NCBI GenBank assembly: GCA_020630735.1
Contig: JAHDIP010000010.1
Span: 1-56,629, forward strand
From: Saprospiraceae bacterium
GTDB taxonomy: Bacteria; Bacteroidota; Bacteroidia; Chitinophagales; Saprospiraceae
Direction: 5' to 3'
DNA length: 56,629 bases
The translations under genes and the position numbers were made by a program. A model generated the notes under the pieces. The model saw nothing but the letters and a program-made list of their open reading frames with translations, was not told where the DNA came from and did not search any database. Below, in pieces: positions 6,023 to 34,279 of this stretch. Positions within the stretch are counted from its first letter, which is position 1, and every line of letters starts with the position of its first letter.

Positions 6023-6787
6023 TTAATTTATAGCATCTAATAGTTTTTTTGCTTTTGTCTGTTGCGGAAAAGCTTCTTTAATAATATTTTCTAAGTTGCT
6101 TTTAGCAGCGGATAAATTATTGTTTTGTATATATGCTAAGGCTTGATACCATAGTGCTTTTTCTTCATCTCCGTTATTATCTATTACACGTTGGAATTTT
6201 TCAATAGCTTTCTCAAACTCTTTTAGCTCAATGTAATTTTGTCCTTCGAGTAAACGTACCGTATTATACTTAGGGTATGTTTCAGGAATTTTGGATAATG
6301 TCAAAAGTGATTCTACATAATTTCCAGACAAGAATTCTGTATCACCTTTTTTTAATAGAGCATAAAACGCTTCTTGATCATTTGCCCCTTTCAATGTAAT
6401 TATTGTGCTCGTTTTGGTGTCTTGCCAATACTGTTGAGCGAGTTGCTGCGAAGTTTGGCTAGGTTGTTTTAATAAAAATAAAGCTGCTACTAATAAGGCA
6501 ACAGATGCCGCAATACCGATTAGGTATTTTTGATAATTTAGACGGACGATTTTTGATTCCTTATTAGGCTTTTTATCATTTAAAAATTTTTCTTTGTTTT
6601 TATTCGGGCTGCCTGCATCATACAGTTCTTCTACTACTTTATGAGCATACTCATATTGGTTTAGTTTTTGGCGAAAGCCAGCTTCATTTTTTAACCGTTG
6701 ATTAAAAGTCGCTAGTTCGGTTTCAGTGAGATCGAAATCTAAATAGCGTTCAATGAGTTCAATATCTTTTGTGGATTTTTCTTGCAT
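6023..6787 (-). CDS. Membrane TPR protein, probable anti-sigma factor
   Basis: Follows the sigma-factor gene on the same strand after about 60 bases. Residues 1-85 form a soluble, charged N-terminal part with helical YLDFDLTETELATF and FRQKLNQYE segments, as in cytoplasmic anti-sigma domains. A single membrane helix spans about residues 88-107. The remaining 145 residues form TPR-like repeats (FLSGNYVESLLTLSKIP, ELKEFEKAIEKFQRVI, ALWYQALAYIQNNNLSAAKSNL) that should lie in the periplasm. No zinc-binding anti-sigma motif is present, unlike the paralogous system at 32.8-34.3 kb. The proposed job is to hold the sigma factor inactive until the TPR part senses a periplasmic signal. This is inferred from architecture and gene order. 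Confidence 0.7.
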   Translation of the reverse strand: MQEKSTKDIELIERYLDFDLTETELATFNQRLKNEAGFRQKLNQYEYAHKVVEELYDAGSPNKNKEKFLNDKKPNKESKIVRLNYQKYLIGIAASVALLVAALFLLKQPSQTSQQLAQQYWQDTKTSTIITLKGANDQEAFYALLKKGDTEFLSGNYVESLLTLSKIPETYPKYNTVRLLEGQNYIELKEFEKAIEKFQRVIDNNGDEEKALWYQALAYIQNNNLSAAKSNLENIIKEAFPQQTKAKKLLDAIN

Positions 6788-6846
6788 GATTTTTTGTTTT
6801 GTGTAGGGAACTATTTGATATAAAATCTATTAACCATTGCTAAGGT

Positions 6847-7434
6847 CTAATTGGAGGGTTTATTTAACTCAACAAAGAATTTACGTTTTAGTTCTTTTTT
6901 GCAATTGTATTTTGCTTGTACAATACCTTGATAGTTTTTGTATCCTAATTCTTCCCAAATATTTTTTAGTTTTTCGCCATTAATTAAATAAGTATAAAGT
7001 GTTTTACATTTTTGACAAAGATTAGCAATTGCATTTCTTAAAGAAGTATGCTTCACTTCATCCGTTATTAATTCTTCCCATAAATCTTCATCACTCTTAT
7101 GCTCTCCTTCACTTATGTCTCTATCAAATTCTTCTTTGTAGTCAACTCGTTCATTTTTTCTTTTTCGCTGCATATTATGAAACGCATTAATACACATCCG
7201 ATAAATGTATCCTTCGATATTTTGAGATGGCAACTCTTGTTTCCCTTCTACAAAACGTTCCCAAAACTTTAAGAGTACTTGTGCAAAAACTTCATCTGCA
7301 TCAAATTGAGACTTTGTTAATTGAAGCAGTTTAGGTTGACACTTTTGCTTCACCTGCGCAAAGAAATGATTGAAATCTTTGCTATTGCCATTTTGAGCCG
7401 CCTCAAATACATGTGAAAAGTTTGTATGATTCAT
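6847..7434 (-). CDS. RNA polymerase sigma factor, ECF-like
   Basis: Alternative sigma factor of 195 residues that should direct RNA polymerase to a specific promoter set. Region 2 is recognisable around residues 45-95 (FDADEVFAQVLLKFWERF, then IEGYIYRMCINAFHNMQRKRK), and region 4 lies near the C-terminus (EKLKNIWEELGYKNYQGIVQAKYNCKKELKRKF). It is divergent from the exported-protein genes that begin at 7811, with a 376-base gap between, and precedes the TPR anti-sigma-like gene. The spacing suggests an operon with that gene. The target promoters are not identifiable from the sequence; the divergent cassette is the obvious candidate but this is unproven. Confidence 0.83.
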   Translation of the reverse strand: MNHTNFSHVFEAAQNGNSKDFNHFFAQVKQKCQPKLLQLTKSQFDADEVFAQVLLKFWERFVEGKQELPSQNIEGYIYRMCINAFHNMQRKRKNERVDYKEEFDRDISEGEHKSDEDLWEELITDEVKHTSLRNAIANLCQKCKTLYTYLINGEKLKNIWEELGYKNYQGIVQAKYNCKKELKRKFFVELNKPSN

Positions 7435-7810
7435 AGTAGTTAGTTTCAGCTAAAAGCGGAGAAATAAAAAATTATGTTTTTATTCCGTCTGTCAAAAATA
7501 GAGCCTTCCATTTAAGAGACACAAAATATTGAAAAAATAAAACTAGTTGAATGCGAATAAAAAAATACATGATTTTTTCTGTCTCCTAAGATACTAAAAT
7601 TCAGCTTCTTGTAAGAAAGTTAAATCGAAAAAATAAAATTTATGCTTTATCTTTTTTTAGTGCTGTGTCTTTTATGTAAACCTTATTGATGCATCGATAA
7701 AACTATGATAGACTTTTGATAAATAAAAGTATTCATCAAAATAATAAATCAAAAAGCGTAAGCCGAAAAGCTAAAAGAGTAGGCATTAAAAATTTAAAAC
7801 TAAAACAAAA
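7435..7810. other. Divergent intergenic region, sigma factor / T9SS cassette
   Basis: A 376-base AT-rich gap without a credible ORF. It must hold promoters for the sigma factor gene (minus) and the first exported-protein gene (plus). A near-palindrome GATGCATC occurs near 7689-7696. I cannot identify a sigma-specific promoter motif here. Confidence 0.5.
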
Positions 7811-8824
7811 ATGAAAGTACGATTATTATCAATTATGCTGCTTTTAACAGCATTTGTAACACAAATAAATGCACAAACTACAATAGAACGAACGAGTTGT
7901 AGCTCGCTAAAAGTAGAATTTTTATCAACATCATATTGTGTAAACTGCTTTGATTGTAGTTCTGTATTTGCACCTATTTCTCTTGTACCAGAAATTGAAC
8001 TATTTAGAAATGGAAATTTTTATCAAAGAAAAACGGGAACAACAGCAAGCTTCAGTAGTTTGCCAAGTGGGAGTTATACCGCAAGGGCTCGTTATCCTAT
8101 AGCCAATACTCCTTTAACACAATGTGTTAGAGTTGATCTTGCAGTAATGGGACTAATAGGAACAATGGTAAGTGGAAGTTATACAGAACCAGTTGTTATA
8201 GGTCCTCCTGTAGTAGATGCATTTCTTATAGACTTTGATGGAGAACATTATAATAATGTCTTTTGTTCGGGCTATATAAGTGATGATATTTATTTGGTGG
8301 GTAATAATACAACAGGAGAAGATCGCTATTTTATAAGTATTACTGGCGATTATGGTACGCATACAGCTTGGAATGGAAAATGGTTTCAAGGAGAGATAGG
8401 AGTAGTAGAGTTAAGGAATGAAGTATGGAGAGTAAATCATCCGAGTTGGAACTTTTGGCCAGGTGAATATACTGTTTATATTTATGCAAGACAAAATGGT
8501 TGTTCTTTTTGGGATGATCAAGAAATTACTTTTACTGTAGTAAATGATGGAAGTTGTAGACTAGCAAATGAAGAAGAAAAAGTAGACGTGATAGTGTCTC
8601 CCAATCCTACTTCAGAAGAGATTCGTTTAAATAACTTGAGCGTTTCTTTTGATGAAAATATTCCATATACAATTCATGACCTTTCGGGTAAACAAGTACT
8701 TAGTGGTTCATTATTATCTCCTACTGAACCTATTCAGGTAAGCGATTTACCAAACGGAATGTACTTTGTAAAAGTAGCAACGGAAGACAAATTGATTACG
8801 AAGAAGTTTATGGTTACAAAATAG
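7811..8824 (+). CDS. T9SS type A sorting domain protein, Cys-rich
   Basis: Exported protein of unknown function, 337 residues. A signal peptide (MKVRLLSIMLL... INAQ, about 22 residues) is followed by a Cys-rich N-terminal segment with CSSLKVEF and CVNCFDCSS. The middle is beta-rich and resembles Ig-like domains (LVPEIELFRNGNFYQRK, SGSYTARARYP). The last 80 residues are a typical type IX sorting domain: SPNPTSEEIRLNN, IHDLSGKQVL, LPNGMYFVKV and KKFMVTK. It should be carried across the outer membrane by the T9SS, with cleavage of the sorting domain and anchoring or release at the surface. It is the first gene divergent from the sigma factor and has its own terminator hairpin downstream. Confidence 0.85.
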   Translation: MKVRLLSIMLLLTAFVTQINAQTTIERTSCSSLKVEFLSTSYCVNCFDCSSVFAPISLVPEIELFRNGNFYQRKTGTTASFSSLPSGSYTARARYPIANTPLTQCVRVDLAVMGLIGTMVSGSYTEPVVIGPPVVDAFLIDFDGEHYNNVFCSGYISDDIYLVGNNTTGEDRYFISITGDYGTHTAWNGKWFQGEIGVVELRNEVWRVNHPSWNFWPGEYTVYIYARQNGCSFWDDQEITFTVVNDGSCRLANEEEKVDVIVSPNPTSEEIRLNNLSVSFDENIPYTIHDLSGKQVLSGSLLSPTEPIQVSDLPNGMYFVKVATEDKLITKKFMVTK

Positions 8825-8840
8825 ACTATTGATGTCCAAT

Positions 8841-8890
8841 AATTTCGAAGTTAAAAGATGTAAATTCAAACAACTTCTAACTTCGGAATT
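8841..8890 (+). terminator. Terminator-like hairpin
   Basis: Arms AATTTCGAAGTTAAAAG (8841-8857) and CTTCTAACTTCGGAATT (8874-8890) pair over 17 positions with two G-U type mismatches, and the right arm is followed by CTTTT. It separates the first T9SS gene from the M43 protease gene. Confidence 0.6.
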
Positions 8891-8908
8891 CTTTTAAATG
8901 TTATCTTT

Positions 8909-10132
8909 ATGAAAAGGATACTTCTTTTTTGGTTTCTTTTATTATCGACCCTTTTAGGTAAAAGCCAACCCTGTGGTTTTGATTTAATACAAACAGATCG
9001 TCATTTTTATTCAACTATAGAACAGAATGAAAATGTCGTAAAAGAATGGAAACAGAATAATTCTTTACACTTGCAAAGCAGAAGTGCTATCGTCATTCCA
9101 GTCGTATTTCACATTGTGTGGCACGAAGAAGAAGAAAACATTACAGATCAACAAATTCAGTCGCAAATAGATATTCTTAATAGAGATTATAATCTTGATA
9201 ACATAGAGTTGTCCTCTATCGCTGATGAGTATGCAGAAATGGCTGCTACTATAAATATATCTTTTTGTATAGCTAGTAAATTTGATGGTACGAATATCGT
9301 AAAAGGAATTAGTCGAAAGCATATAGATCGAGAGTCCATAGGGGCATTTAATAATTTATATGTTTCAGATAGAGGCGGAGACGATGCTTGGGATACCCAA
9401 AAATATCTGAATATATGGGTTTGTAAATTGCCAAGCGGATTATTAGGATTTGCTACAATGCCCAATTCTGTTGAGCCTTACAAAGATGGAATTGTAATGG
9501 ACTACAGAAATATAGGAAGTATAGGGACTGCAACCGAAAACGCTCCTTATCACTTAGGGCGTACATTGACACATGAAGTAGGACACTACTTAAATTTATT
9601 GCATCCTTGGGGAAAACAGGAAGGAGAATGTGAAGAAGATGATCTTGTTGAGGATACGCCAGCTCAAGCTTTTGCTAACCTAGGTTGTAATAGAAATACA
9701 GATTCTTGTAATTCGAGTGATAATCATTTGAACTTTATGGGATATGCTGATGACGCATGTATGGCTCTTTTTACAGAAGGTCAGAAGGCTAGAATGATAG
9801 AATGTTTACTTGCATTGAGACCCCAATTGAGATCAAGTGAAAACTGTAGTAACTGTATTCATCAGCCTGATCTAGAATACTCAAAAGTATCTGTTTTTCC
9901 TAATCCGGCAAAAACATCGTTTTCTGTTTTTATAGAAAATGAACTAGAAAATGATCCCTTATTCCAAATAGAATTATATGATCCGTTAGGAAAAAAAATA
10001 ATAGAAAAACAAGAGATTAAGACGAATTCTTTTCATACTTTTGATTTTCCACAGCATATACCTTCTGGTATTTATTTTTTGTTAGTTAAAAGCAAAGACG
10101 TAAGCATTATAAAAAAAATCACAAAAACCTAA
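8909..10132 (+). CDS. M43 family zinc metalloprotease with T9SS domain
   Basis: Secreted metzincin protease of the pappalysin/cytophagalysin group, 407 residues. The signal peptide covers about 19 residues. The catalytic zinc site HEVGHYLNLLH begins at about residue 221, with His221, His225 and His231 as ligands and Glu222 as catalytic base. The downstream FMGYADDACM carries the Met-turn. The upstream VIPVVFHIVWH and WKYLNIWVCKLP-type strands are typical of the family. Four or more Cys near DSCNSSDN and ENCSNC may form disulfides. Residues about 330-407 are the T9SS sorting domain (SVFPNPAKTSFSVF, LYDPLGKKII, SGIYFLLVK, IIKKITKT). It probably degrades proteins outside the cell. The neighbouring trypsin-like gene makes this a two-protease cassette. 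Confidence 0.93.
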   Translation: MKRILLFWFLLLSTLLGKSQPCGFDLIQTDRHFYSTIEQNENVVKEWKQNNSLHLQSRSAIVIPVVFHIVWHEEEENITDQQIQSQIDILNRDYNLDNIELSSIADEYAEMAATINISFCIASKFDGTNIVKGISRKHIDRESIGAFNNLYVSDRGGDDAWDTQKYLNIWVCKLPSGLLGFATMPNSVEPYKDGIVMDYRNIGSIGTATENAPYHLGRTLTHEVGHYLNLLHPWGKQEGECEEDDLVEDTPAQAFANLGCNRNTDSCNSSDNHLNFMGYADDACMALFTEGQKARMIECLLALRPQLRSSENCSNCIHQPDLEYSKVSVFPNPAKTSFSVFIENELENDPLFQIELYDPLGKKIIEKQEIKTNSFHTFDFPQHIPSGIYFLLVKSKDVSIIKKITKT

Positions 10133-10142
10133 ATCTTCGAAT

Positions 10143-10193
10143 AAGTAAGTGCTTGGTCAAAAAAGTAACTTATTTCTGTCCAAGCACTTACTT
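10143..10193 (+). terminator. Long hairpin after M43 gene, probable terminator
   Basis: Perfect 14-bp arms AAGTAAGTGCTTGG (10143-10156) and CCAAGCACTTACTT (10180-10193) around a 23-base loop, 11 bases after the stop. The arm sequence recurs in reverse orientation near 43030-43046, so this may be part of a dispersed intergenic repeat. Confidence 0.6.
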
Positions 10194-10670
10194 AAATATA
10201 CTTTAGGAGAAAATTAACTAGAAGAAAAGTATGTTTTTATAGCGGATTAAACGACTTTTTTATAAATAAGTAACGAATAAAAAATAAGTCTGCCATTTGG
10301 AGATAGAGATTTTGTCGAAAGCCAAGGCAAAAAACGTAGACGATGCAGGGCATCGACGAGGCTTTTTAACGCAAGCTTACGATAAAAGATTATCGGTGAA
10401 ATGATGGAGTTATTCTTTAGTCGTTACTAAAATGAGAAAAGTGTTTTATGTTTTTTAAATCAAGTGTCTTCTAAGTAATACCCATTTATTCGTCAAGAAA
10501 ATTTAGAAGATAGGTAGTTTTCAGTCGCATCAAAATAATATTAAAATTAGTTAGGAATGGTAGATAGCATAGTTGTCTAGCAAAGCTTTCCTATTTACAA
10601 AAAGAGTCTTTGTAAAAGACTTTTATAGAAATAAACCATAAATATTTTAGAAACTAAATACAATTTAATT
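10194..10670. other. Structured intergenic region
   Basis: No credible ORF. It holds several small hairpins: CGATGC/GCATCG (10341-10346 and 10350-10355) nested in AAAGCC/GGCTTT (10318-10323 and 10360-10365), CGATAA/TTATCG (10380-10385 and 10390-10395), and an AAAGAGTCTTT/AAAAGACTTTT pair at about 10600-10624. The promoter of the fibre protein gene should be in the last 100 bases. Confidence 0.45.
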
Positions 10671-11759
10671 ATGAAACGATTTACTTTTTTATTCGCAATG
10701 CTATTTTTTGCATCGTTTACAATAAACGCTCAGACAACTTACGGAACTGGCGCAGGTACTCAAGGAGGATGGAGTGGTACGTATTTTGGCTATGAAGCAG
10801 GAAGCGTTAACACTGGTATTAGTAATGTTTTTATTGGTGGTAAAGCAGGTAGAGATAATACAACAGGACAATGGAATACCTTTTTAGGAGGTCTTGCTGG
10901 ATTACTAAATACTACAGGAGAATTTAATACTTTTCTTGGTAGTAATGCTGGTAGAAATACTACTGAAGGGAGCCATAATTCTATGATAGGTGTTAATGCA
11001 GGGTTGAACAATAAAACAGGGGGACACAATGTACTTATAGGTGTCAATGCTGGTCGACTGAATACTGACGGAAGTAGAAATTTAGCAATAGGTACAAACA
11101 CTGGTTATAGTAATACTTTGGGTAATGATAATATCTTTTTAGGGTACAATTCAGGTCGACTGAACGACAAAGGGAATAATAATACCTTCTTAGGAGTCAA
11201 TGCTGGTTATTCTAATAAAGAAGGAGATTACAATACCTATCTTGGTTCTTTTGCAGGCTATGATGCAGTAGGAGGTAATAATGTATTTATTGGTTCTTAT
11301 GCAGGGAGATATGAGTCAGGTAGCAATAAATTGTATATCGATAATAGTAGTACATCTTCACCTCTCTTATATGGTGATTTTAATACCAACCAATTAGCAG
11401 TAAATGGTCAATTAAAAATTGGTGATGTAACGTACAATAGTAATTATAAACTCTTTGTGGAGAAAGGTATCCTTACCGAAAAATTGAAAGTTGCTACTAG
11501 TGGAACTACTAACTGGGCAGACTATGTTTTCGAAGAAGATTACGATCTAAATAGTCTAGAAGAAGTTGAAGCTCATATCAAAGAAAAGAAACACTTACCT
11601 AATGTACCATCAGCAGCAGAAGTGAATGAAGAAGGTGTGGATATGGTAGAAATGGATGCTACACTATTGCGCCAAATTGAGGAGCTTTGGTTACATATGA
11701 TTGACTTGAAGAAAGAGAATGAAGAATTGAAGAAGGAAATTGAAAAAATGAAAAACTAA
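10671..11759 (+). CDS. Exported repeat and coiled-coil fibre-like protein
   Basis: Protein of 362 residues with a signal peptide (about 21 residues, ending INAQ). Residues about 30-225 are roughly ten tandem repeats of about 20 residues built on NTFLGxxAGxxNTTGxxN, for example NTFLGGLAGLLNTTGEF and NTFLGSNAGRNTTEGSH. Such repeats are like the head repeats of trimeric autotransporter adhesins. A short beta segment (NQLAVNGQLKIG) follows, then the tail DYVFEEDYDLNSLEEVEAHIKEKKHLP common in Bacteroidota fibre proteins, and a coiled coil to the C-terminus (LKKENEELKKEIEKM). There is no type IX sorting domain, unlike its neighbours. It is probably a surface or extracellular trimer; trimerisation and export route are inferred. 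Confidence 0.82.
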   Translation: MKRFTFLFAMLFFASFTINAQTTYGTGAGTQGGWSGTYFGYEAGSVNTGISNVFIGGKAGRDNTTGQWNTFLGGLAGLLNTTGEFNTFLGSNAGRNTTEGSHNSMIGVNAGLNNKTGGHNVLIGVNAGRLNTDGSRNLAIGTNTGYSNTLGNDNIFLGYNSGRLNDKGNNNTFLGVNAGYSNKEGDYNTYLGSFAGYDAVGGNNVFIGSYAGRYESGSNKLYIDNSSTSSPLLYGDFNTNQLAVNGQLKIGDVTYNSNYKLFVEKGILTEKLKVATSGTTNWADYVFEEDYDLNSLEEVEAHIKEKKHLPNVPSAAEVNEEGVDMVEMDATLLRQIEELWLHMIDLKKENEELKKEIEKMKN

Positions 11760-11771
11760 AGCAATAACAGT

Positions 11772-13472
11772 ATGAAAATTAAAATATATCATAGCATACT
11801 ATTTCTATTCATCTTTACTGCAGTAAACCTTTTCGGACAAGATGGAGGTCCTTTAAAAGTGGGAGAAGAGATACTCATAAAGTATGAATCTCCACATCCT
11901 TATAAAAGTGGCGATGATGATAAAAATGAAATAGTATGGCAGCAAGAAATAACCCATAAGAATGCATCCTATATTGCTATTCATTTTAGCAAAGTAGCGC
12001 TTTCGGAAGGCGATTTTATATTACTTAGGTCTCCCGATAATTCTAGATCATGGAAATATTCTGATTCTGATAAAAAAGAATTTTGGAGTATTCCTATACA
12101 TGGCGAAAAAGCGATAATAGAAATTCATAGTACAAATAAAGTAGGAAGTTTTGGATACACTATTGATAAAATTGCACGAGGATACACTCAAAAAGAAATG
12201 GAATTAGAAACAGAAGCAGCTATTTGTGGAGAAGATGATTCTGAAAATGCAGTTTGCTATATCAATTCAGAACCTGAACCTTATTACAGATCAAGAGCCG
12301 TTGCTCGATTACTTATAAACGGTGTAGGCGCTTGTACTGGATGGTTAATCGGAAGTGATGGTCATATAATGACAAACAATCACTGTGTAGGCAGTCAAAA
12401 TAGTGCAAGTAATGTAACAGTAGAATTTATGGCTGAAGGTAGCGAGTGTGACTCTCCATGCCAAACGTGGTTTGGCTGTCCAGGAACTATAGAAGCAACT
12501 TCTACAACATTAATTCAGACAGATGGGTTTTTAGATTATTCATTATTGCAGCTACCTACTAACGTTTCAGATACCTATGGGTTTTTACAAGTAAGAGAGA
12601 CAGGTCCTATTCTCAATGAACGCATTTATATACCACAGCATCCGCAAGCTTGGGGGAAAAGAGTTGCCTTATATTCAGATAGTGATCCAGATGGTTTTCC
12701 AGTTATTACCACTTTATCAGCGCCTCGTTGTACAGGGGCAGGAATTGGAGATATAGGCTACTTGGCAGATACACGACAAGGATCTTCTGGCTCTCCTGTA
12801 ATTAGCTATAATGACAATTGTGTTGTAGCGCTTCACCATTGTGCCAATTGTCCAAATAGAGGTGTTTCTTTGGGAGAAATAATAAATGATTTAGGAGATA
12901 ATGTGCCTACAGATGCGATAAGAACTTCTTGCGAAGATCAGTTAACTCTTTCATCAACTTATTCTGATGAAGTAGATTATGAAGAAGCAAACGATTGGAT
13001 TCAATCTACTGCTACCATTAATGATGGATCATACATTATTTACGATGCAGGAAATTCCATATGTTTGAATCCTGATTTTAATGTAGAGAATGGCTCAGTG
13101 TTTTTAGCACACATAGATGGTTGTCATTATTATTCTCCCGAAAACGCACCACCTATTCAAGAAAAAAATCTAAAACATTTAGAAGAACAAATAATAGAAA
13201 CAAAAGGAGAGCTAGTAGCAATTAGAAACTACCCAAATCCTTTTTCGAAACGAACTACATTTGAATTTGAATTACAAGAACAAAACAAAGTACGATTGGC
13301 AATATATGATGTGACAGGAAAGTCAATCGCAATATTGATTGACAATAAAGCTATGGAAAAAGGTTTTCATACAATCGACTTTGATGCTGAACATATTCCT
13401 GATGGAATATACTTTTACCAATTATCAACAGAACAAGAAAGCATTACCCAAAAGATGGTTCTGAAACGATAA
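11772..13472 (+). CDS. Trypsin-like serine protease with T9SS domain
   Basis: Secreted S1-type endopeptidase, 566 residues, 12 bases after the fibre gene. The signal peptide covers about 23 residues. The catalytic triad is His204 (TNNHCVG), Asp255 (LDYSLLQL) and Ser339 (GSSGSPV). The fold and the Cys pattern (ACTGW, NNHC, ECDSPCQTWFGC) resemble the lysyl-endopeptidase group of bacterial trypsins. Residues about 415-450 carry a beta segment ending ENGSVFLAHIDGC that is common before the sorting domain in this phylum. The last 80 residues are a T9SS domain (RNYPNPFSKRTTFEF, IYDVTGKSI, PDGIYFYQL, TQKMVLKR). Predicted to hydrolyse extracellular proteins; the P1 specificity is not decided here. 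Confidence 0.92.
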   Translation: MKIKIYHSILFLFIFTAVNLFGQDGGPLKVGEEILIKYESPHPYKSGDDDKNEIVWQQEITHKNASYIAIHFSKVALSEGDFILLRSPDNSRSWKYSDSDKKEFWSIPIHGEKAIIEIHSTNKVGSFGYTIDKIARGYTQKEMELETEAAICGEDDSENAVCYINSEPEPYYRSRAVARLLINGVGACTGWLIGSDGHIMTNNHCVGSQNSASNVTVEFMAEGSECDSPCQTWFGCPGTIEATSTTLIQTDGFLDYSLLQLPTNVSDTYGFLQVRETGPILNERIYIPQHPQAWGKRVALYSDSDPDGFPVITTLSAPRCTGAGIGDIGYLADTRQGSSGSPVISYNDNCVVALHHCANCPNRGVSLGEIINDLGDNVPTDAIRTSCEDQLTLSSTYSDEVDYEEANDWIQSTATINDGSYIIYDAGNSICLNPDFNVENGSVFLAHIDGCHYYSPENAPPIQEKNLKHLEEQIIETKGELVAIRNYPNPFSKRTTFEFELQEQNKVRLAIYDVTGKSIAILIDNKAMEKGFHTIDFDAEHIPDGIYFYQLSTEQESITQKMVLKR

Positions 13473-13488
13473 TATAAAAAAAAATACA

Positions 13489-13518
13489 GCCTTCCAGGTC
13501 GACCAGGACTTGGAAGGC
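13489..13518 (+). terminator. Terminator hairpin after trypsin-like protease
   Basis: GCCTTCCA (13489-13496) pairs with TGGAAGGC (13511-13518), extended by imperfect GGTC/GGAC pairing in the loop. An A-tract precedes the left arm, giving a U-tract for transcription from the other strand. Confidence 0.55.
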
Positions 13519-13587
13519 ATTCGTATTAGATCTATGGTAAGATAGATTCTTATACTAAATTTAAAATTAGCGTAAAAATCTAAAAAA

Positions 13588-14994
13588 ATGAAGAAAATAA
13601 ATATATTTTACATTTTGTTAACTATTGCGTTTTTTACTAATGCAATGGTTACAAAAGCTCAGGTGGCGGGTATAACACAACTATCACTCGTTAGCTATGA
13701 TAGTGCTACCCCGACCCCCAATATAATAGATACAGATGTGATTGGAGATGGCTCAACTCCTATCCAGAGTTATGAATATTATGCAGACCCTCTTGTCATA
13801 GAAAGTAATGGGATAATGAAAACAGATATTTTTTATGAAGCCCCATCACCTGGCCAAACGGTTTACTTAAGAATATGGTTAGATGCCAATGGTAATGGTG
13901 TATTTGAAGCAAGTGAAATACTGATATCTACTAGCAGTTCTACTGGCGTTTTTTTCCCATCACCCAATATACCTGTTTTAGCACCTGATGTTGAATTAAT
14001 GACAATGCAGTTTATAATGTATGATGATAGTAATTACACTAATGAGATTTCTAATATCCTGTTGAGTGTAGTAGAGTTTGGCGATCCACCTCCTTTAATT
14101 ATACATACGAGTGGTAAAGAAGGTATAGTTACATTTGAAGAAGAGGAAGAGTATCTTTATTGTCTACCAATTGATGATCGAATAGTTTTTCTTGTTAAAT
14201 ATGAATTTTTAGGAAATTATAATATTGAAAGAATAGAACTAAACGGTAATGAAGTAGAAGTAGATGACTATACAAGAATTTCTATTGCAGTTGGAGAAAA
14301 TGAACATCCTCGAGATAGATTTATAATTGATATTGATCCGTCTCAACTTAGTAATATAAATAGATTAGATTGCATAGCTTCTAATGGCGGAACAGAACAT
14401 TATAAAGGGATTTATTTTACTCTAGGTTGTTGTCCTACAAATACGGCAACATATAATGAATATAATCCACCATTTTATCATACTGGTGCTTCAGATAGAA
14501 TAAGCTTAGGAACTCCTCTAGGAGCTCCAGAAGATGGAGGTCTGTTACAAATACAAACAAATGAAGAATATTCTTTCCAAGCAGTAAATGAAATTGAGTT
14601 TCATCCTGGGGTTGAAATAGAGGGCGATGAAATGGAAGATGATGGTTTCCTTTTTGCTTATATTCATCCTTGTGTTGATGTTCAGGGAAATAACTCTCGG
14701 GTACAGGATACAAATGATCAAAAAACTTTTGATCATTTATCTAGTCTGTATAAAGTATCGCCAAATCCTTTTTCAGATCAAGTTACCATTAGTTACTCTT
14801 TATTAGAAAAAGATGTAGTTAACTTGAATTTATATAATGTCAATGGACAGATGATTAAACAATTAGTGGTCGACAAATATCAAGTTGATTTCAATGAAGT
14901 TCAATTAGATACCTCTACCTTGCCACAAGGAACGTATTTCATGAAGCTTCAATTAGGACAATCTATTTATACCAAAAAAATAGTTAAATTGTAA
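13588..14994 (+). CDS. T9SS type A sorting domain surface protein
   Basis: Exported protein of 468 residues with no enzyme motif. The signal peptide covers about 25 residues (ending TKAQ). The first half has a beta-rich GEVAL-like region (TVYLRIWLDANGNGVFEASE) similar to domains of secreted Bacteroidota proteins. Later a segment ends HPGVEIEGDEMEDDGFLFAYIHPC, homologous to the ENGSVFLAHIDGC segment of the upstream protease, so the two share a module. The C-terminal 80 residues are a sorting domain (KVSPNPFSDQVTISY, NLYNVNGQMI, LPQGTYFMKL, TKKIVKL). It is followed immediately by the long palindrome that touches the CHAT gene. Its role, perhaps adhesion, is unknown. Confidence 0.83.
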   Translation: MKKINIFYILLTIAFFTNAMVTKAQVAGITQLSLVSYDSATPTPNIIDTDVIGDGSTPIQSYEYYADPLVIESNGIMKTDIFYEAPSPGQTVYLRIWLDANGNGVFEASEILISTSSSTGVFFPSPNIPVLAPDVELMTMQFIMYDDSNYTNEISNILLSVVEFGDPPPLIIHTSGKEGIVTFEEEEEYLYCLPIDDRIVFLVKYEFLGNYNIERIELNGNEVEVDDYTRISIAVGENEHPRDRFIIDIDPSQLSNINRLDCIASNGGTEHYKGIYFTLGCCPTNTATYNEYNPPFYHTGASDRISLGTPLGAPEDGGLLQIQTNEEYSFQAVNEIEFHPGVEIEGDEMEDDGFLFAYIHPCVDVQGNNSRVQDTNDQKTFDHLSSLYKVSPNPFSDQVTISYSLLEKDVVNLNLYNVNGQMIKQLVVDKYQVDFNEVQLDTSTLPQGTYFMKLQLGQSIYTKKIVKL

Positions 14995-14999
14995 TTGTT

Positions 15000-15048
15000 T
15001 GCATTAATCTCAGTACATTGTGATTCACAATGTACTGAGATTAATGCA
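15000..15048 (+). terminator. Near-perfect 49-bp palindrome at CHAT start codon
   Basis: Arms 15000-15023 and 15025-15048 are fully complementary over 24 bases around a single central T. The last base of the right arm is the A of the CHAT gene ATG. As RNA it would form a very stable hairpin ending the upstream transcript, and it would sequester the ribosome-entry region of the CHAT gene. It can serve as terminator, translation block or protein-binding palindrome; the sequence alone does not decide. Confidence 0.75.
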
Positions 15049-17873
15049 TGTTTAAAACTATAACAAAACAAGCTATATTTTTTTCCTCATTCGTCCTGTT
15101 TTTAACGATGTTTTATTCTGAAAAAAACTATGCTCAGAATATAGGGGATACTCTTGTTATCTTACAATATGATTCTTTAGGAAAACTTCATTTTCAAAAG
15201 AATGAATTAGATAGTTGTATCTTCTACAATCAACAACTATTAAACATCTTTACAAAAAAAGAGGACTGGGAAAATGTAATCAAGAATGTTAACATGATTG
15301 CTTATTGTCATTATGCAAAAGAAGATATTGACAAAATGGGAGAATGTTTACTAAGCCAAGAAAAGGTTATAGATAAAATATTAGCATTAAAAGGGAGTTA
15401 TTCTTCCTTGCTAATGAAGTACTGGAACCTTCTAGCGACATACTATTTTAAAACAGGTAATCTTAGTCAAAAAATAAACTATAATAAAAAAGCACTCGGA
15501 GTTTTAGAAAATAAAGCACAACCAGATTCGATTAAATTAGCCGTTTTATATCAAAATCTAGCTATAGATTATCAAGCATTAAAAGATCATAAAACAGCTT
15601 TAGATTATTCTTTGAAAGGACTCTACATTTATCGTCCCCGAGGAGATCGAAAAGAAACTGAATTAGATTCACTGGCTTTTATCAATACGATAGCTACGCA
15701 ATATGCAGAATTAAAAGATATAGAAAAGGCAAACTATTATTTTAAAGAAGCTTTAAGGTTTCTTAGAAAAAACAGCGCTTTTGGATCTATTCAAAAAATA
15801 GAATTAACAGCTTTTTTGAATCTGAAAAAATACTTTCCTGAATCAGAGTTAGATTTATTAATAAGTGAATACCTCAATCCTTTTCAAAAATCTATTTTTT
15901 TAAAACGAACAAGCGATTACTATCTTACTAGGGGAGATACCACAGAAGCATTACAATTGCTTAATCAATCACTAAAACTTTGTAAAGATAGTTTAGGGCT
16001 AAAAAGTAGAGGTACAAGTAGTCTTTACCTTGCACTTGGTGATTTTTATAAGATTAAAAAACCTGATCAGGCATTATCATATTACCAAAGAGCCTTAACT
16101 TCGATCGTTTGGGATTTTAATGATAGTATAGATGTCTCAAAAAATCCAACGATTAACCAAGTTACGTATTCCAAAATAGATTTGTTTGAAATATTAAAAG
16201 CTAAGGCAGAAACATTAAAACAATTAGGTCGGTTTGATATAGCTTTAAAAACTTATGAACGTTCGATCGAAACAATGGAAGATATTCGGCAAAATTATAT
16301 TGCCGAAAGTTCAAAACTAATGCTACAAGAAAAAGGCTTAGAATTATTTGAAGATGCAATTGAGGTCGCTATACAATTAGGAGAAAATGAAAAAGCTTTG
16401 GTCTTCTCTGAACAAAGTAAAGTAGCGTTGCTACAAGAAGTTGTTCAAGATAGCAAAGCCAAAATGTTTGCTTCTATACCTGAGGTTTTTCTAGAAAAAG
16501 AAAAACAACTAAAAGAAGAACGAGGAGTTTTAGAACGACAACTATATGCCGCTCAAGAGAAAAACGATACTTCAGAAGTCCTTCAGTTAAATAACGAATT
16601 ATTTACGCTTAGTAGAACATACACGATTTTTAAAGAAAATTTACTAAACGATTTTCCTGAATATCATAACTTGAAATATCAGGAAGAACAGGTCAGTTTA
16701 ATTAAACTTCAAGAAAAACTAAAAGAGAATCAAAGTATCATCGAGTACTTTTATGGCGAAAAACAGATGTATACGTTTGTCATTCGGAATGACCGCTTAG
16801 AGGTGTTAGCAGTTCCAACTGATGGAAAACTGATGCAGGATATCAAATCCTTTAGAAACTTGGTTAGAGAAATATCAACAGATATTACCTACTATAAAAG
16901 TTTTACGAATACACTTTATGGATTATATACAAAATTGCTTGAACCCACTTTACCTTTCCTAGATGGTGTAGAAGAAATAACAATTATTCCAGATGGGGCA
17001 ATCTCCTATATTCCTTTTCAAGCATTAATAAAATATCCAGTTGCAGGGACAATTAAAAAAAATCGTTACGATACACTACATTATTTGGTAAATGATTACT
17101 GTTTTGATTATGTATACTCCTCAACCTTATCTACGACTTTTGAGGAATTGAAAGTAGATCATCATCGTTCAAATTTTGGCGGCTTTGCTCCTGTTTTTGA
17201 TGCCTCTAGAAGTAATGAAAAACTAGAGGAACTCAAATATAGTTTAAAAGAAGTTACAATTATTGATTCTATATTAGGAGGACAATCCTATTTGAAAGAA
17301 GCAGCTACCCGAAGCAACTTTAAGAAAGATATCAACCAACATAAAATTATCCACCTGTCCACACATACGTCTATAGACGATCAAAATCCAATGAATAGCG
17401 AAATTCATTTTATTGATAGTTCATTGACGATTAGTGAAATTTATGGCTTACCGATACAAGCACGTTTAACAGTATTGAGTGCTTGCGAAACAGGTGTCGG
17501 CGAACTAAAAAGAGGAGAAGGTATTATGAGTTTAGCGAGAGCCTTTACCTATGCTGGTTGTCCAAGTATCTTTACCAGTCTTTGGAGTGTGAGCGATGAA
17601 GAAACGGCTGGTTTGATGATCAATTTTTATGAAAATTTACATCAAGGAAAAGAGCAACACAGAGCCTTACACACGGCACAACAAAATTATTTAAGCAACA
17701 TCCAATTTTCGGAAAAAGCGCATCCTTTTTATTGGTCAGGATTTATTCATATAGGACAACAAGATGCCCTCTTTAATAATATATCATCGAACAATTGGTA
17801 TTGGATTGGATTTATAGGAATATTATTACTAGTTGGTTTATCTTTTTGGAAAAAAAAAGCCGCTTTAAACTAA
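15048..17873 (+). CDS. TPR and CHAT (caspase-like) domain protein
   Basis: Protein of 941 residues. An N-terminal signal sequence (to about residue 30) and a C-terminal membrane helix at about 916-935 followed by KKKAALN suggest that the body lies in the periplasm and is anchored by its tail. About residues 35-450 are TPR-type repeats (LQNLAIDYQALKDHKTALDYSLKGL, ALGDFYKIKKPDQALSYYQRAL). About 640-910 is a CHAT domain with the cysteine-protease dyad His773 (HLSTHTS) and Cys813 (LSACETG), and the conserved RGEGIMSLARAF and SLWSVSDEETA. CHAT proteins are clan CD peptidases; some cleave specific partner proteins. The substrate here is unknown. Its place at the end of the exported-protein cassette beside a sigma/anti-sigma pair suggests a sensing or cleavage role, which is inference. 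Confidence 0.88.
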   Translation: MFKTITKQAIFFSSFVLFLTMFYSEKNYAQNIGDTLVILQYDSLGKLHFQKNELDSCIFYNQQLLNIFTKKEDWENVIKNVNMIAYCHYAKEDIDKMGECLLSQEKVIDKILALKGSYSSLLMKYWNLLATYYFKTGNLSQKINYNKKALGVLENKAQPDSIKLAVLYQNLAIDYQALKDHKTALDYSLKGLYIYRPRGDRKETELDSLAFINTIATQYAELKDIEKANYYFKEALRFLRKNSAFGSIQKIELTAFLNLKKYFPESELDLLISEYLNPFQKSIFLKRTSDYYLTRGDTTEALQLLNQSLKLCKDSLGLKSRGTSSLYLALGDFYKIKKPDQALSYYQRALTSIVWDFNDSIDVSKNPTINQVTYSKIDLFEILKAKAETLKQLGRFDIALKTYERSIETMEDIRQNYIAESSKLMLQEKGLELFEDAIEVAIQLGENEKALVFSEQSKVALLQEVVQDSKAKMFASIPEVFLEKEKQLKEERGVLERQLYAAQEKNDTSEVLQLNNELFTLSRTYTIFKENLLNDFPEYHNLKYQEEQVSLIKLQEKLKENQSIIEYFYGEKQMYTFVIRNDRLEVLAVPTDGKLMQDIKSFRNLVREISTDITYYKSFTNTLYGLYTKLLEPTLPFLDGVEEITIIPDGAISYIPFQALIKYPVAGTIKKNRYDTLHYLVNDYCFDYVYSSTLSTTFEELKVDHHRSNFGGFAPVFDASRSNEKLEELKYSLKEVTIIDSILGGQSYLKEAATRSNFKKDINQHKIIHLSTHTSIDDQNPMNSEIHFIDSSLTISEIYGLPIQARLTVLSACETGVGELKRGEGIMSLARAFTYAGCPSIFTSLWSVSDEETAGLMINFYENLHQGKEQHRALHTAQQNYLSNIQFSEKAHPFYWSGFIHIGQQDALFNNISSNNWYWIGFIGILLLVGLSFWKKKAALN

Positions 17874-32780: not shown

Positions 32781-33560
32781 TTATTCCGAAATTTCTGTTT
32801 TTAGAGCAGTCGCCTTTTTTGCGTAAAACCCATTCTCAATTTTTAATAATTCATCCAGAATGATACGAGCATCGGTTTTATTATCATTTTTAACATAAGC
32901 TAGAGCCAAATACCAACTCGCCTCTTCATAATACTGCTCATCATTAAAACGGGCAGTACTCAGGTAGTCAATCGCATTTGGGTAGTTTCCTTCTTCTAAG
33001 TAAGCCATACCTGCCAAAAAGGTAGCTTTAGCATCTTCTTGATTGTTATCCAAATACTGTTCAAAATAAGTTAAACTATTCGCATAGTCTTTTGCATTAT
33101 AAAAGTCAATTGCTTTACTATAATTTGCATCCAATTTTACAGCATCGTTTCCACCTCTTAGTTGACCGCCCTCTAGCTCAAATCCATCATAATAGCTCTG
33201 ATAAAGCCGCTCACCAGATGAAGCATTCCAATACAATAAACCTGCAATAGGTATGATCAACATCATAGCAGCAGCAGCCACCCTATTCAAGGTAATCAGA
33301 CGAGACTGTTTAGGCAATGCTCGAATACTTGCTTCTGTGTTGGTTTGATTGCCAAACCGATTTTTTAGTTCTTCCAATTGTTTATCTTCTTCAAAGTTAT
33401 AATGATTGGCAAAGCCCTCTAATGCTTCGCTACAAAGTGGACAATCTAATAAATGATTTTCGATCTGGTAACGTTGCTCGTCATCAGTCGATTCACTCAG
33501 GTAATGCTGTATTTGCTGAGCATTCAAACATTTAGAATTATCAAAAATTGCCTTTTTCAT
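32781..33560 (-). CDS. Zinc-type anti-sigma factor with TPR domain
   Basis: 259 residues, downstream of an ECF sigma gene. The cytoplasmic N-terminus has a HxxxCxxC-like zinc motif (His36, Cys40, Cys43) typical of ZAS anti-sigma domains. A membrane helix lies at about 93-111. The periplasmic C-terminus holds TPR units (AIDFYNAKDYANSLTYFEQYL, FLAGMAYLEEGNYPNAIDYL, ASWYLALAYVKNDNKTDARII). The architecture matches the gene at 6023-6787, but that one lacks the zinc ligands. Likely role: tether and inhibit the adjacent sigma factor and release it on an envelope signal; this is inferred from the family. Confidence 0.83.
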   Translation of the reverse strand: MKKAIFDNSKCLNAQQIQHYLSESTDDEQRYQIENHLLDCPLCSEALEGFANHYNFEEDKQLEELKNRFGNQTNTEASIRALPKQSRLITLNRVAAAAMMLIIPIAGLLYWNASSGERLYQSYYDGFELEGGQLRGGNDAVKLDANYSKAIDFYNAKDYANSLTYFEQYLDNNQEDAKATFLAGMAYLEEGNYPNAIDYLSTARFNDEQYYEEASWYLALAYVKNDNKTDARIILDELLKIENGFYAKKATALKTEISE

Positions 33561-33676
33561 CGAGTTAAAATTTTTCCAGCTTTTACCAAAGTAAATTTGC
33601 TGTTTTAAATAACTTCTACATGTACACAGTGTAAAAGTCTCTTTTCTACTTAAACGTCGTTATTTTTATCAACGGT

Positions 33677-34279
33677 TTACTTTTCCTTCAACAACACCTT
33701 CAACTTTCGTTTACCATTTTGTAAAAAACTCTTTACTTGCTTTAGATCATAATTGGTTTCTTCTACGATCTTTTTATAACTTTTTTCTTCTAGAAAAAAC
33801 AGTCGAATACATAGTGCCTGCCCTTCAGGTAAACGACTGAGTGCCTTTTCGATTTTTTCCCTCAAAGAGTCCTCCCCTTTATTATAAAGACGCACAAATC
33901 CTTCGTTTTCCATAAAATGATCTGAGTTTTTTTCAACTTTTTCCCAATCTTCTAGGATTTCTTCCGATTTTTTTTGTTTACGCAGGTATGAAAAACAATG
34001 ATTTCGGACAAAAATAAAAAGCCAAGGCTTAAAGCGTTGAATATCATTTTTAGGAATTTTTTTGAACAGGAGTTCGAAAATGATAATGGTTACATCCTTA
34101 CTAGTTTCCTTATCAAATAAAAAATTTAGGCATAAACCAAAAACGACAGTGTAATAACGTTTGAAAAGTTCATTTATAAAATGTTCGCTGCCCGAACGCT
34201 TATAGCGTTCGATCAGTTCTTCATCCGTCAAAGTTGTCAGGCTAGATTTTCCCAAAGTGTATGAGTTGTTGTATTTCAA
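33677..34279 (-). CDS. ECF RNA polymerase sigma factor
   Basis: About 200 residues with sigma-70 region 2 (HFINELFKRYYTVVFGLCLNFLF, KPWLFIFVRNHCFSYLRKQKK) and region 4 (RLPEGQALCIRLFFLEEKSYKKIVEETNYDLKQVKSFL, given here in parts). It directs polymerase to an envelope- or stress-related regulon; the regulon is unknown. The first start in frame is a TTG at 34279 that overlaps a TACCTTTG promoter box. A TTG at 34255 is an alternative that would place the start just after the transcription start. It precedes the zinc anti-sigma gene by 116 bases and is probably co-transcribed with it. Confidence 0.83.
   Translation of the reverse strand: MKYNNSYTLGKSSLTTLTDEELIERYKRSGSEHFINELFKRYYTVVFGLCLNFLFDKETSKDVTIIIFELLFKKIPKNDIQRFKPWLFIFVRNHCFSYLRKQKKSEEILEDWEKVEKNSDHFMENEGFVRLYNKGEDSLREKIEKALSRLPEGQALCIRLFFLEEKSYKKIVEETNYDLKQVKSFLQNGKRKLKVLLKEK

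Follow-up and report, generated by a model that had tools for sequence, protein, structure and literature searches.

As far as we are aware, partners are known for few CHAT proteins, of which Csx29 is one. Once target RNA activates Csx29 through its tetratricopeptide repeat (TPR) domain, it cuts Csx30, the inhibitor of the sigma factor CASP-sigma, as described in the available part of a published account (PMC10028731). A second close system is DdvA/DdvS of Myxococcus xanthus (PMC4374960), the available text of which does not mention CHAT. Our literature search found no paper on the structure of DdvA, which is known here from the titles of its Protein Data Bank (PDB) entries, 8rot and 8rw5, and from an alignment of our own. 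Here we describe a 56,629-nucleotide stretch of DNA from a Saprospiraceae bacterium (GenBank assembly GCA_020630735.1, contig JAHDIP010000010.1, positions 1 to 56,629 of the forward strand), referred to below as the window, which is one contig (C62) of a 6.6 Mb genome in 434 contigs. It encodes a diverged sigma factor of probable extracytoplasmic function (ECF) type, a single-pass TPR protein with the layout of a membrane anti-sigma factor, and an exported TPR-CHAT protein. The Craspase TPR-CHAT protein is cytosolic, whereas that of the window has a predicted signal peptide and a C-terminal helix. We propose, as a reading about equally likely to hold or to fail, that the three window proteins form a caspase-type switch like that of Csx29, Csx30 and CASP-sigma, but an extracytoplasmic one in which the CHAT protein would open a membrane anti-sigma lock by cleavage.

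Results

The link between CHAT, sigma and anti-sigma genes is recurrent and extends beyond this window. A first sigma profile, A1, was built from ten sigma factors of the window genome, seven encoded beside a CHAT gene and three not, and was run on that genome and on three relatives, G016, G003 and G021, the first two of them well assembled and none of which contributed a sigma factor to it. In G016, 13 of 22 CHAT places lay within 8 kb of an A1 match (2.6 expected, binomial P 1.6e-7), as did 8 of 15 in G003 (1.3 expected, P 1e-5), in a test that counts tandem CHATs sharing one sigma gene as independent; the result for G021 is weighed in the Discussion. The figure for the window genome, 8 of 17 with 2.0 expected, is partly circular because A1 was built from its own sigma factors. 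Named genomes were also scanned, with loci chosen by CHAT similarity alone, giving 71 distinct complete CHATs; 45 had at least 4 kb on both flanks, and a sigma gene lay within 4 kb of 22 of these. Over all loci, the density of sigma genes per 100 kb was 6.7, 12.0, 5.1 and 4.4 for the four kilobases nearest the CHAT gene, taken in turn, and 1.6-2.7 beyond 4 kb; in the subset of G016 and G003 the farthest bin is noisy, with 5.7 per 100 kb derived from two genes.

For the wider collection, regions were fetched around 20 of the 22 CHAT places of G016 and 13 of the 15 of G003 (weak or isolated ones being omitted), and around 7 of the 14 of G021. To these were added 60 regions chosen by hand in nine further genomes. 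A search with a cytosolic CHAT, which brought in more CHATs with neither signal peptide nor anchor, supplied another 20 regions that account for 21 of its 32 listed places. Among 222 distinct CHAT genes, up to 22 per genome, 196 were complete and longer than 500 residues. A sigma gene (E <1e-6) lay within 8 kb of 109 of these 196, a count that is partly circular for loci L030-L171 and the window, because the later and wider sigma profile was built from 67 sigma factors of those loci, and much less so for the named loci L172-L251. Cultured carriers include Zobellia russellii KMM 3677 (L205), Aureibaculum flavum (L203), Aquimarina (L206, L230 and L231), Kordia jejudonensis (L249), Runella defluvii (L246) and Agaribacillus aureus (L174); among the others are Saprospiraceae and Bacteroidales metagenome-assembled genomes (MAGs) and a single MAG from Chlorobiota, in which the CHAT is cut off (L236). 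Our literature search, which left many subscription papers out of reach, found no account of a CHAT/sigma/anti-sigma module outside CRISPR systems.

At 106 of the 109 linked CHATs the sigma gene is adjoined by a gene on the same strand, which we took as its partner; 98 of the 106 partners match the anti-sigma profile and 8 do not. The CHAT gene is divergent from the pair in 44 cases, convergent in 42 and on the same strand in 20, and since 33 of the 42 convergent cases lie within 150 bp, CHAT and partner there end tail to tail. Close-packed rows on one strand were also found. In an uncultured Flavobacteriaceae bacterium (L193, 9977-21381) the order is CHAT, sigma, anti-sigma, CHAT, CHAT with gaps of 6-141 bp, placing three CHATs around one pair; L264 has CHAT, sigma and anti-sigma with gaps of 61 and 2 bp, and L132 has the same order. 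Several CHAT places of the window genome adjoin a sigma gene and then a single-pass TPR gene. The initial annotation had recommended looking for the window's gene order in relatives, and it does recur: in the nearest case, L172 (Saprospiraceae MAG-138), anti-sigma and sigma lie on one strand and, on the other, three signal-peptide open reading frames (ORFs), a type IX secretion system (T9SS) gene and the CHAT gene. Identity to the window there is 32% for sigma, 29% for anti-sigma and 37% for CHAT, and the layout is as in the window. A second set at the same locus (L172:14885-16246) has sigma and membrane TPR anti-sigma as a single 453-residue ORF near a CHAT gene, either a natural fusion or a stop codon lost in the MAG. 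We also observed a second exported CHAT subtype without C-terminal helix in G003 (L096, L098, L100 and L103), each with a sigma gene and a transmembrane (TM) anti-sigma, and in most with a signal-peptide protein of about 430 residues alongside.

The window sigma factor (195 residues; 6847..7434, minus strand) matches TIGR02985 at 3.5e-11 and TIGR02937 at 2.1e-10 (40.5 bits, cut-off 42.9), both below the models' own cut-offs, and reaches only 0.021 with Pfam sigma region 2. Its paralogues stand at CHAT loci; among those scanned, that of L035 exceeds the cut-off of Sigma70_r2 and that of L040 that of Sigma70_r4_2. By its sequence, the window protein is probably a diverged ECF member. The gene directly following it (6023..6787, minus strand) encodes the 254-residue TPR protein, which has a single TM helix at about residues 88-106 with basic residues ahead of it. 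The curated anti-sigma model NF052375 matches it weakly (16.6 bits, E 0.0059, cut-off 100). Its AlphaFold2 model (pLDDT 86.4) has a helical N-terminal part, then a long helix where the TM segment lies, then a TPR domain, which matches solved TPR structures with Z about 15. A gene following the sigma gene, a helical N-terminal part and one TM helix are the layout of a membrane anti-sigma, and all three are present. The positive-inside rule is used to assign membrane sidedness; because basic residues flank the helices, it places both the TPR domain of this protein and the CHAT domain in the periplasm. When further membrane-free anti-sigmas were sought by sequence, 8 matches were obtained in 6 of 296 genomes. 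The window contains a second sigma and single-pass TPR anti-sigma-like pair (32781-34279, minus strand), with a more ordinary ECF sigma; the contig's only CHAT place is about 15 kb away.

The 941-residue protein (15048..17873, plus strand) has TPRs and matches the CHAT family PF12770 at 1.2e-55 (189.5 bits, cut-off 24). It begins with a signal-peptide-like sequence and ends in a moderately hydrophobic segment followed by KKK. The CHAT protein of the module is predicted to be periplasmic rather than cytoplasmic, in most cases with a C-terminal helix as its anchor, which puts it in the same compartment as the partner's TPR domain. The initial annotation had picked out His773 and Cys813 as a dyad, and both are invariant in alignments of 12 and of 34 CHATs. 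The dyad is intact in all 196 complete CHATs (109/109 sigma-linked and 87/87 unlinked), a count that includes 80 loci of the named-genome scan found with patterns containing the Cys motif. We regard these proteins as predicted caspase-like peptidases. An AlphaFold2 model built from 34 sequences (pLDDT 86.0, pTM 0.83) best matched Csx29, the TPR-CHAT protein of Craspase (8eey_B; Z 33.2, root-mean-square deviation 11.5 over 631 residues); it also matched separase (Z 27.9) and, at Z 23.2, the transmembrane anti-sigma DdvA. Because a full-length profile was swamped by TPRs, the PDB search was redone with CHAT alone; DdvA then came first (E 1.2e-6, with His and Cys aligned) and Csx29 next (0.0072), and another CHAT-alone search likewise gave Csx29 as a weak sequence match (E 0.0035). 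Running the anti-sigma profile against every CHAT ORF of the fetched loci gave no match, so no CHAT-anti-sigma fusion was seen.

We then compared tree distances across 83 pairs. Mantel correlations were 0.55 between CHAT domain and anti-sigma, 0.54 between sigma and anti-sigma, and 0.37 between CHAT and sigma, and because all three exceed within-genome permutations (P 5e-4), species ancestry alone does not explain the co-divergence. In partial tests on 56 anchored pairs, which were permuted freely, CHAT correlated with the periplasmic half of the anti-sigma at 0.27 (P 0.001) once sigma and the cytosolic half were controlled for; its tie to the cytosolic half was weaker, at 0.14 (P 0.057), as was that to sigma, at 0.11 (P 0.061). 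For the TPR part at the N-terminus of the CHAT protein, the value with the same periplasmic half was 0.32 (P 0.001).

Predicted topology also agrees between the partners. In the tight set, all 78 exported CHATs were paired with a TM partner, and all six cytosolic CHATs (L102, L121, L260, L264, L276 and L277) with a TM-free one. The 84/84 concordance, counted over tight pairs with readable N-termini after hand correction, gives a Fisher value of 2.5e-9, which overstates the association because the tree needs only two changes, in two lineages. Topology was assigned by a simple hydropathy script and then corrected by hand: L125, L152, L169 and L204 were read as exported from a later start, L205 as having the TM helix, L121 as cytosolic and L276 as cytosolic with a TM-free partner, and the N-terminus was judged unreadable in L040, L120, L186 and L247, of which L040 and L186 were set aside from the tight set. 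That set admits L102, L277, L093 and one L141 pair, in which the partner misses the anti-sigma profile; the L277 sigma is atypical at 362 residues. As to the partners of the cytosolic CHATs, those of L102, L260, L264, L276 and L277 have a PGxYY- or GxYY-like terminal stretch in place of TM helix and TPRs, and that of L121 has TPR-like repeats without a TM helix.

In the window, the sigma gene is separated by a divergent intergenic region (7435..7810) from a row of exported proteins on the plus strand, and all ORFs named in the initial annotation are present at the positions given for them. The exported proteins are a T9SS-tail protein of 337 residues (7811..8824; Por_Secre_tail, 1.3e-12), an M43 metalloprotease of 407 residues (8909..10132; PF05572 3.1e-18, PF18962 2.8e-10), a repeat and coiled-coil "fibre" protein of 362 residues (10671..11759), a trypsin-like protease of 566 residues (11772..13472; PF13365 9.6e-16, PF18962 7.1e-12) and a 468-residue T9SS-tail protein with a weak GEVED match (13588..14994; PF18962 7.4e-13). 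Domain searches thus agree with its naming of the M43, trypsin-like, T9SS and CHAT proteins; both proteases and the two further T9SS-tail proteins, four tails in total, exceed Pfam cut-offs. The Pfam scan gave no match for the fibre protein, whose signal-peptide-like start and repeats were read from the sequence. The trypsin-like protein weakly matches the defence model PDC-M35A (4.4e-05). Near the contig's start (573-2162) are two adjoining genes for what we take to be lipoproteins resembling peptidyl-prolyl isomerases; a PKD-like stretch is present in the second.

This secreted cassette, which had been read as the set of genes switched on by the module, was rejected as a conserved part of it, since no cassette gene accompanies the module elsewhere beyond scattered cases. 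Among proteins of the loci fetched by then, the 337- and 468-residue T9SS proteins had no relative, and the relatives of the M43 protease (7), the trypsin-like protease (3) and the fibre protein (7) were scattered. Two-box promoter patterns were sought ahead of 83 sigma genes, 83 CHAT genes and 40 divergent genes, and failed to rise clearly above shuffles: taken apart, the sets fell within or nearly within the range of three shuffled runs, and the pooled best was 8.7 compared with 7.5 shuffled. No convincing shared promoter motif was found for the window's own intergenic region. A perfect palindromic hairpin with 24-nt arms (15000..15048, plus strand; fold z -7.8) extends up to the first base of the CHAT start codon, and its core pattern has this single exact place in the genome. 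Hairpins with a stem of at least 13 were found in the 100 nt upstream of the start in 16/194 CHATs versus 29/1914 other genes (P 8e-7). They are unrelated in sequence, lie next to the start codon in L245 and L205, and may be either translational controls or terminators.

Discussion

The sigma factor, the TPR membrane protein and the TPR-CHAT protein very likely belong to a single pathway. In the mechanism that we propose, the membrane TPR protein would be the anti-sigma and would keep the sigma factor at the inner membrane. Where Csx29 responds to RNA, the CHAT protein would use its TPR superhelix to sense a signal linked to the envelope or to secretion, and the superhelix would allosterically order the CHAT site. 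The CHAT domain would then cut the periplasmic domain of the anti-sigma, its breakdown would begin, and the freed sigma factor would transcribe its targets, probably including neighbouring exported genes. That the CHAT protein acts upstream on the anti-sigma, and by cutting, has in our view about an even chance of being correct. The initial annotation had suggested that the CHAT protein senses or cleaves an envelope partner, possibly the TPR anti-sigma, to switch on the divergent secreted cassette. The tie to the anti-sigma is strengthened by the recurrent gene order, the predicted periplasmic position of CHAT and its co-divergence with the periplasmic half; the divergent secreted cassette gains no such support as a conserved part of the module.

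Several observations weigh against this cleavage switch. Cutting of the anti-sigma by CHAT is argued by analogy. The dyad does not single out the module, because unlinked CHATs keep it equally. A basic-small dipeptide ([RK][GSTND]) in the anti-sigma stalk was considered as a cut site and rejected, as it is not specific to CHAT-linked anti-sigmas (68/77, compared with 12/19 orphan partners, some of which are not of the TPR type). CHATs also work without this sigma, because 87 of the 196 complete ones have no such sigma gene within 8 kb and none of the 14 CHAT places of G021 lies within 8 kb of an A1 match. In the window itself, five genes and 7.6 kb separate the sigma gene from the CHAT gene, a long distance for the family. 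As to the correlations, co-duplication of gene blocks could yield part of the correlated distances, the partial tests used free permutation rather than permutation within genomes, and the sigma factor tracks the periplasmic half of the anti-sigma as well (partial r 0.37, P 0.001). The topological concordance amounts to two changes on the tree, and L155 is discordant, although it is a looser pair outside the tight set with its sigma gene 7.3 kb off.

The main rival, which we consider unlikely, would make the CHAT protein the output of the sigma/anti-sigma pair and not its switch. The pair would sense the envelope by another route, and CHAT would cut something else, such as T9SS cargo, an envelope protein or, in death or defence, the cell itself. 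ECF sigma factors often control neighbouring genes, and shared regulation would be natural because 44 of the 106 pairs are divergent. Also counted for such an output, a T9SS-tail gene lies within 6 kb of 52/109 linked CHATs, compared with 30/87 unlinked CHATs and 98/400 random genes from the same loci, and ECF sigma outputs were proposed in caspase conflict systems by Kaur et al., according to the available part of their paper (PMC8195603). However, a mere target gene would not be expected to follow the sigma factor less closely than it follows the anti-sigma, in particular the periplasmic half, nor to pair with membrane-free partners in its cytosolic form, and a search of the window's sigma, anti-sigma and CHAT proteins with PADLOC defence models gave no match.

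A distinctly improbable alternative is that CHAT is a non-proteolytic or self-cutting sensor subunit, in which TPR-TPR binding would stabilise or release the anti-sigma, as the TPR-CHAT part of DdvA may do. The structural and profile matches to DdvA speak for it, as does the correlation of the N-terminal TPR part with the periplasmic half of the anti-sigma. A dyad kept in 109/109 linked CHATs exceeds what binding alone would need, although the 80 loci found by Cys-motif patterns contribute to that argument. That there is no functional tie, CHAT genes and ECF pairs being abundant in accessory-rich genomes and clustering by common location, has very little probability: the four compared genomes each hold 10-48 sigma matches and 14-22 CHATs, and G021 shows no association, but co-location is far above random in two genomes independent of the choice of sigma set (G016 and G003), sigma density falls with distance, and close-packed same-strand rows and paired divergence are found.

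Returning to the cleavage switch, a broader version of it, to which we give somewhat less than an even chance, is a widespread Bacteroidota family of which several genomes carry many paralogous sets. In each, a periplasmic TPR-CHAT protein would cut its own membrane TPR anti-sigma and free its own ECF sigma factor; cytosolic versions would act with membrane-free anti-sigmas, DdvA would be a one-chain relative, and CRISPR Csx29/Csx30/CASP-sigma would be the RNA-guided branch of the same older design. Dozens of Bacteroidota CHATs, some in cultured strains, gain a named candidate substrate and a transcription read-out. If the proposal is true, caspase-like proteases would head envelope signalling alongside DegS-type systems, and an origin would be suggested for the CRISPR-linked Csx29-sigma arrangement.

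Fusion into one chain often marks interacting partners. DdvA appears to join in one chain the two partners of the present loci, and from this we infer that they interact. By the match to our model, DdvA demonstrates that an anti-sigma can include a CHAT fold.

The module would work like the Csx29 switch and resembles DdvA, yet on our analysis a defining feature sets it apart from each. The protease fold, here a caspase-like CHAT, also differs from that of DegS, which is a PDZ serine protease. The likeness to RseA/DegS-type regulated proteolysis would lie in an envelope protease that cuts a membrane anti-sigma from the outer side, as mentioned for RseA/DegS in the available part of PMC10028731. 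In EACC2-caspase systems, an ECF sigma gene and a TPR gene of the DUF1822 type likewise neighbour the gene of a caspase-like peptidase, but with a caspase domain and EACC2 in place of TPR-CHAT, according to the available text of PMC8195603; our Pfam scan of the window's sigma, anti-sigma and CHAT proteins listed only CHAT and TPR families, and neither Peptidase_C14 nor DUF1822. In DdvA, as far as its PDB titles and our alignment tell, a TPR-CHAT fold is tied to a membrane anti-sigma with anti-sigma domain, TM helix, TPR and CHAT in one chain, whereas two proteins share these parts here. No RNA-guided Cas7-11/gRAMP partner was recognised in reading the window's ORF lists, a reading made with no Cas profile or CRISPR array search. 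With type III-E Craspase/CASP, as far as the available part of PMC10028731 describes it, the module shares a gene link of a TPR-CHAT protein to a sigma factor and to its inhibitor, the latter only proposed here; the CHAT protein here has a predicted signal peptide and membrane anchor, and the inhibitor would be a membrane TPR protein, not Csx30.

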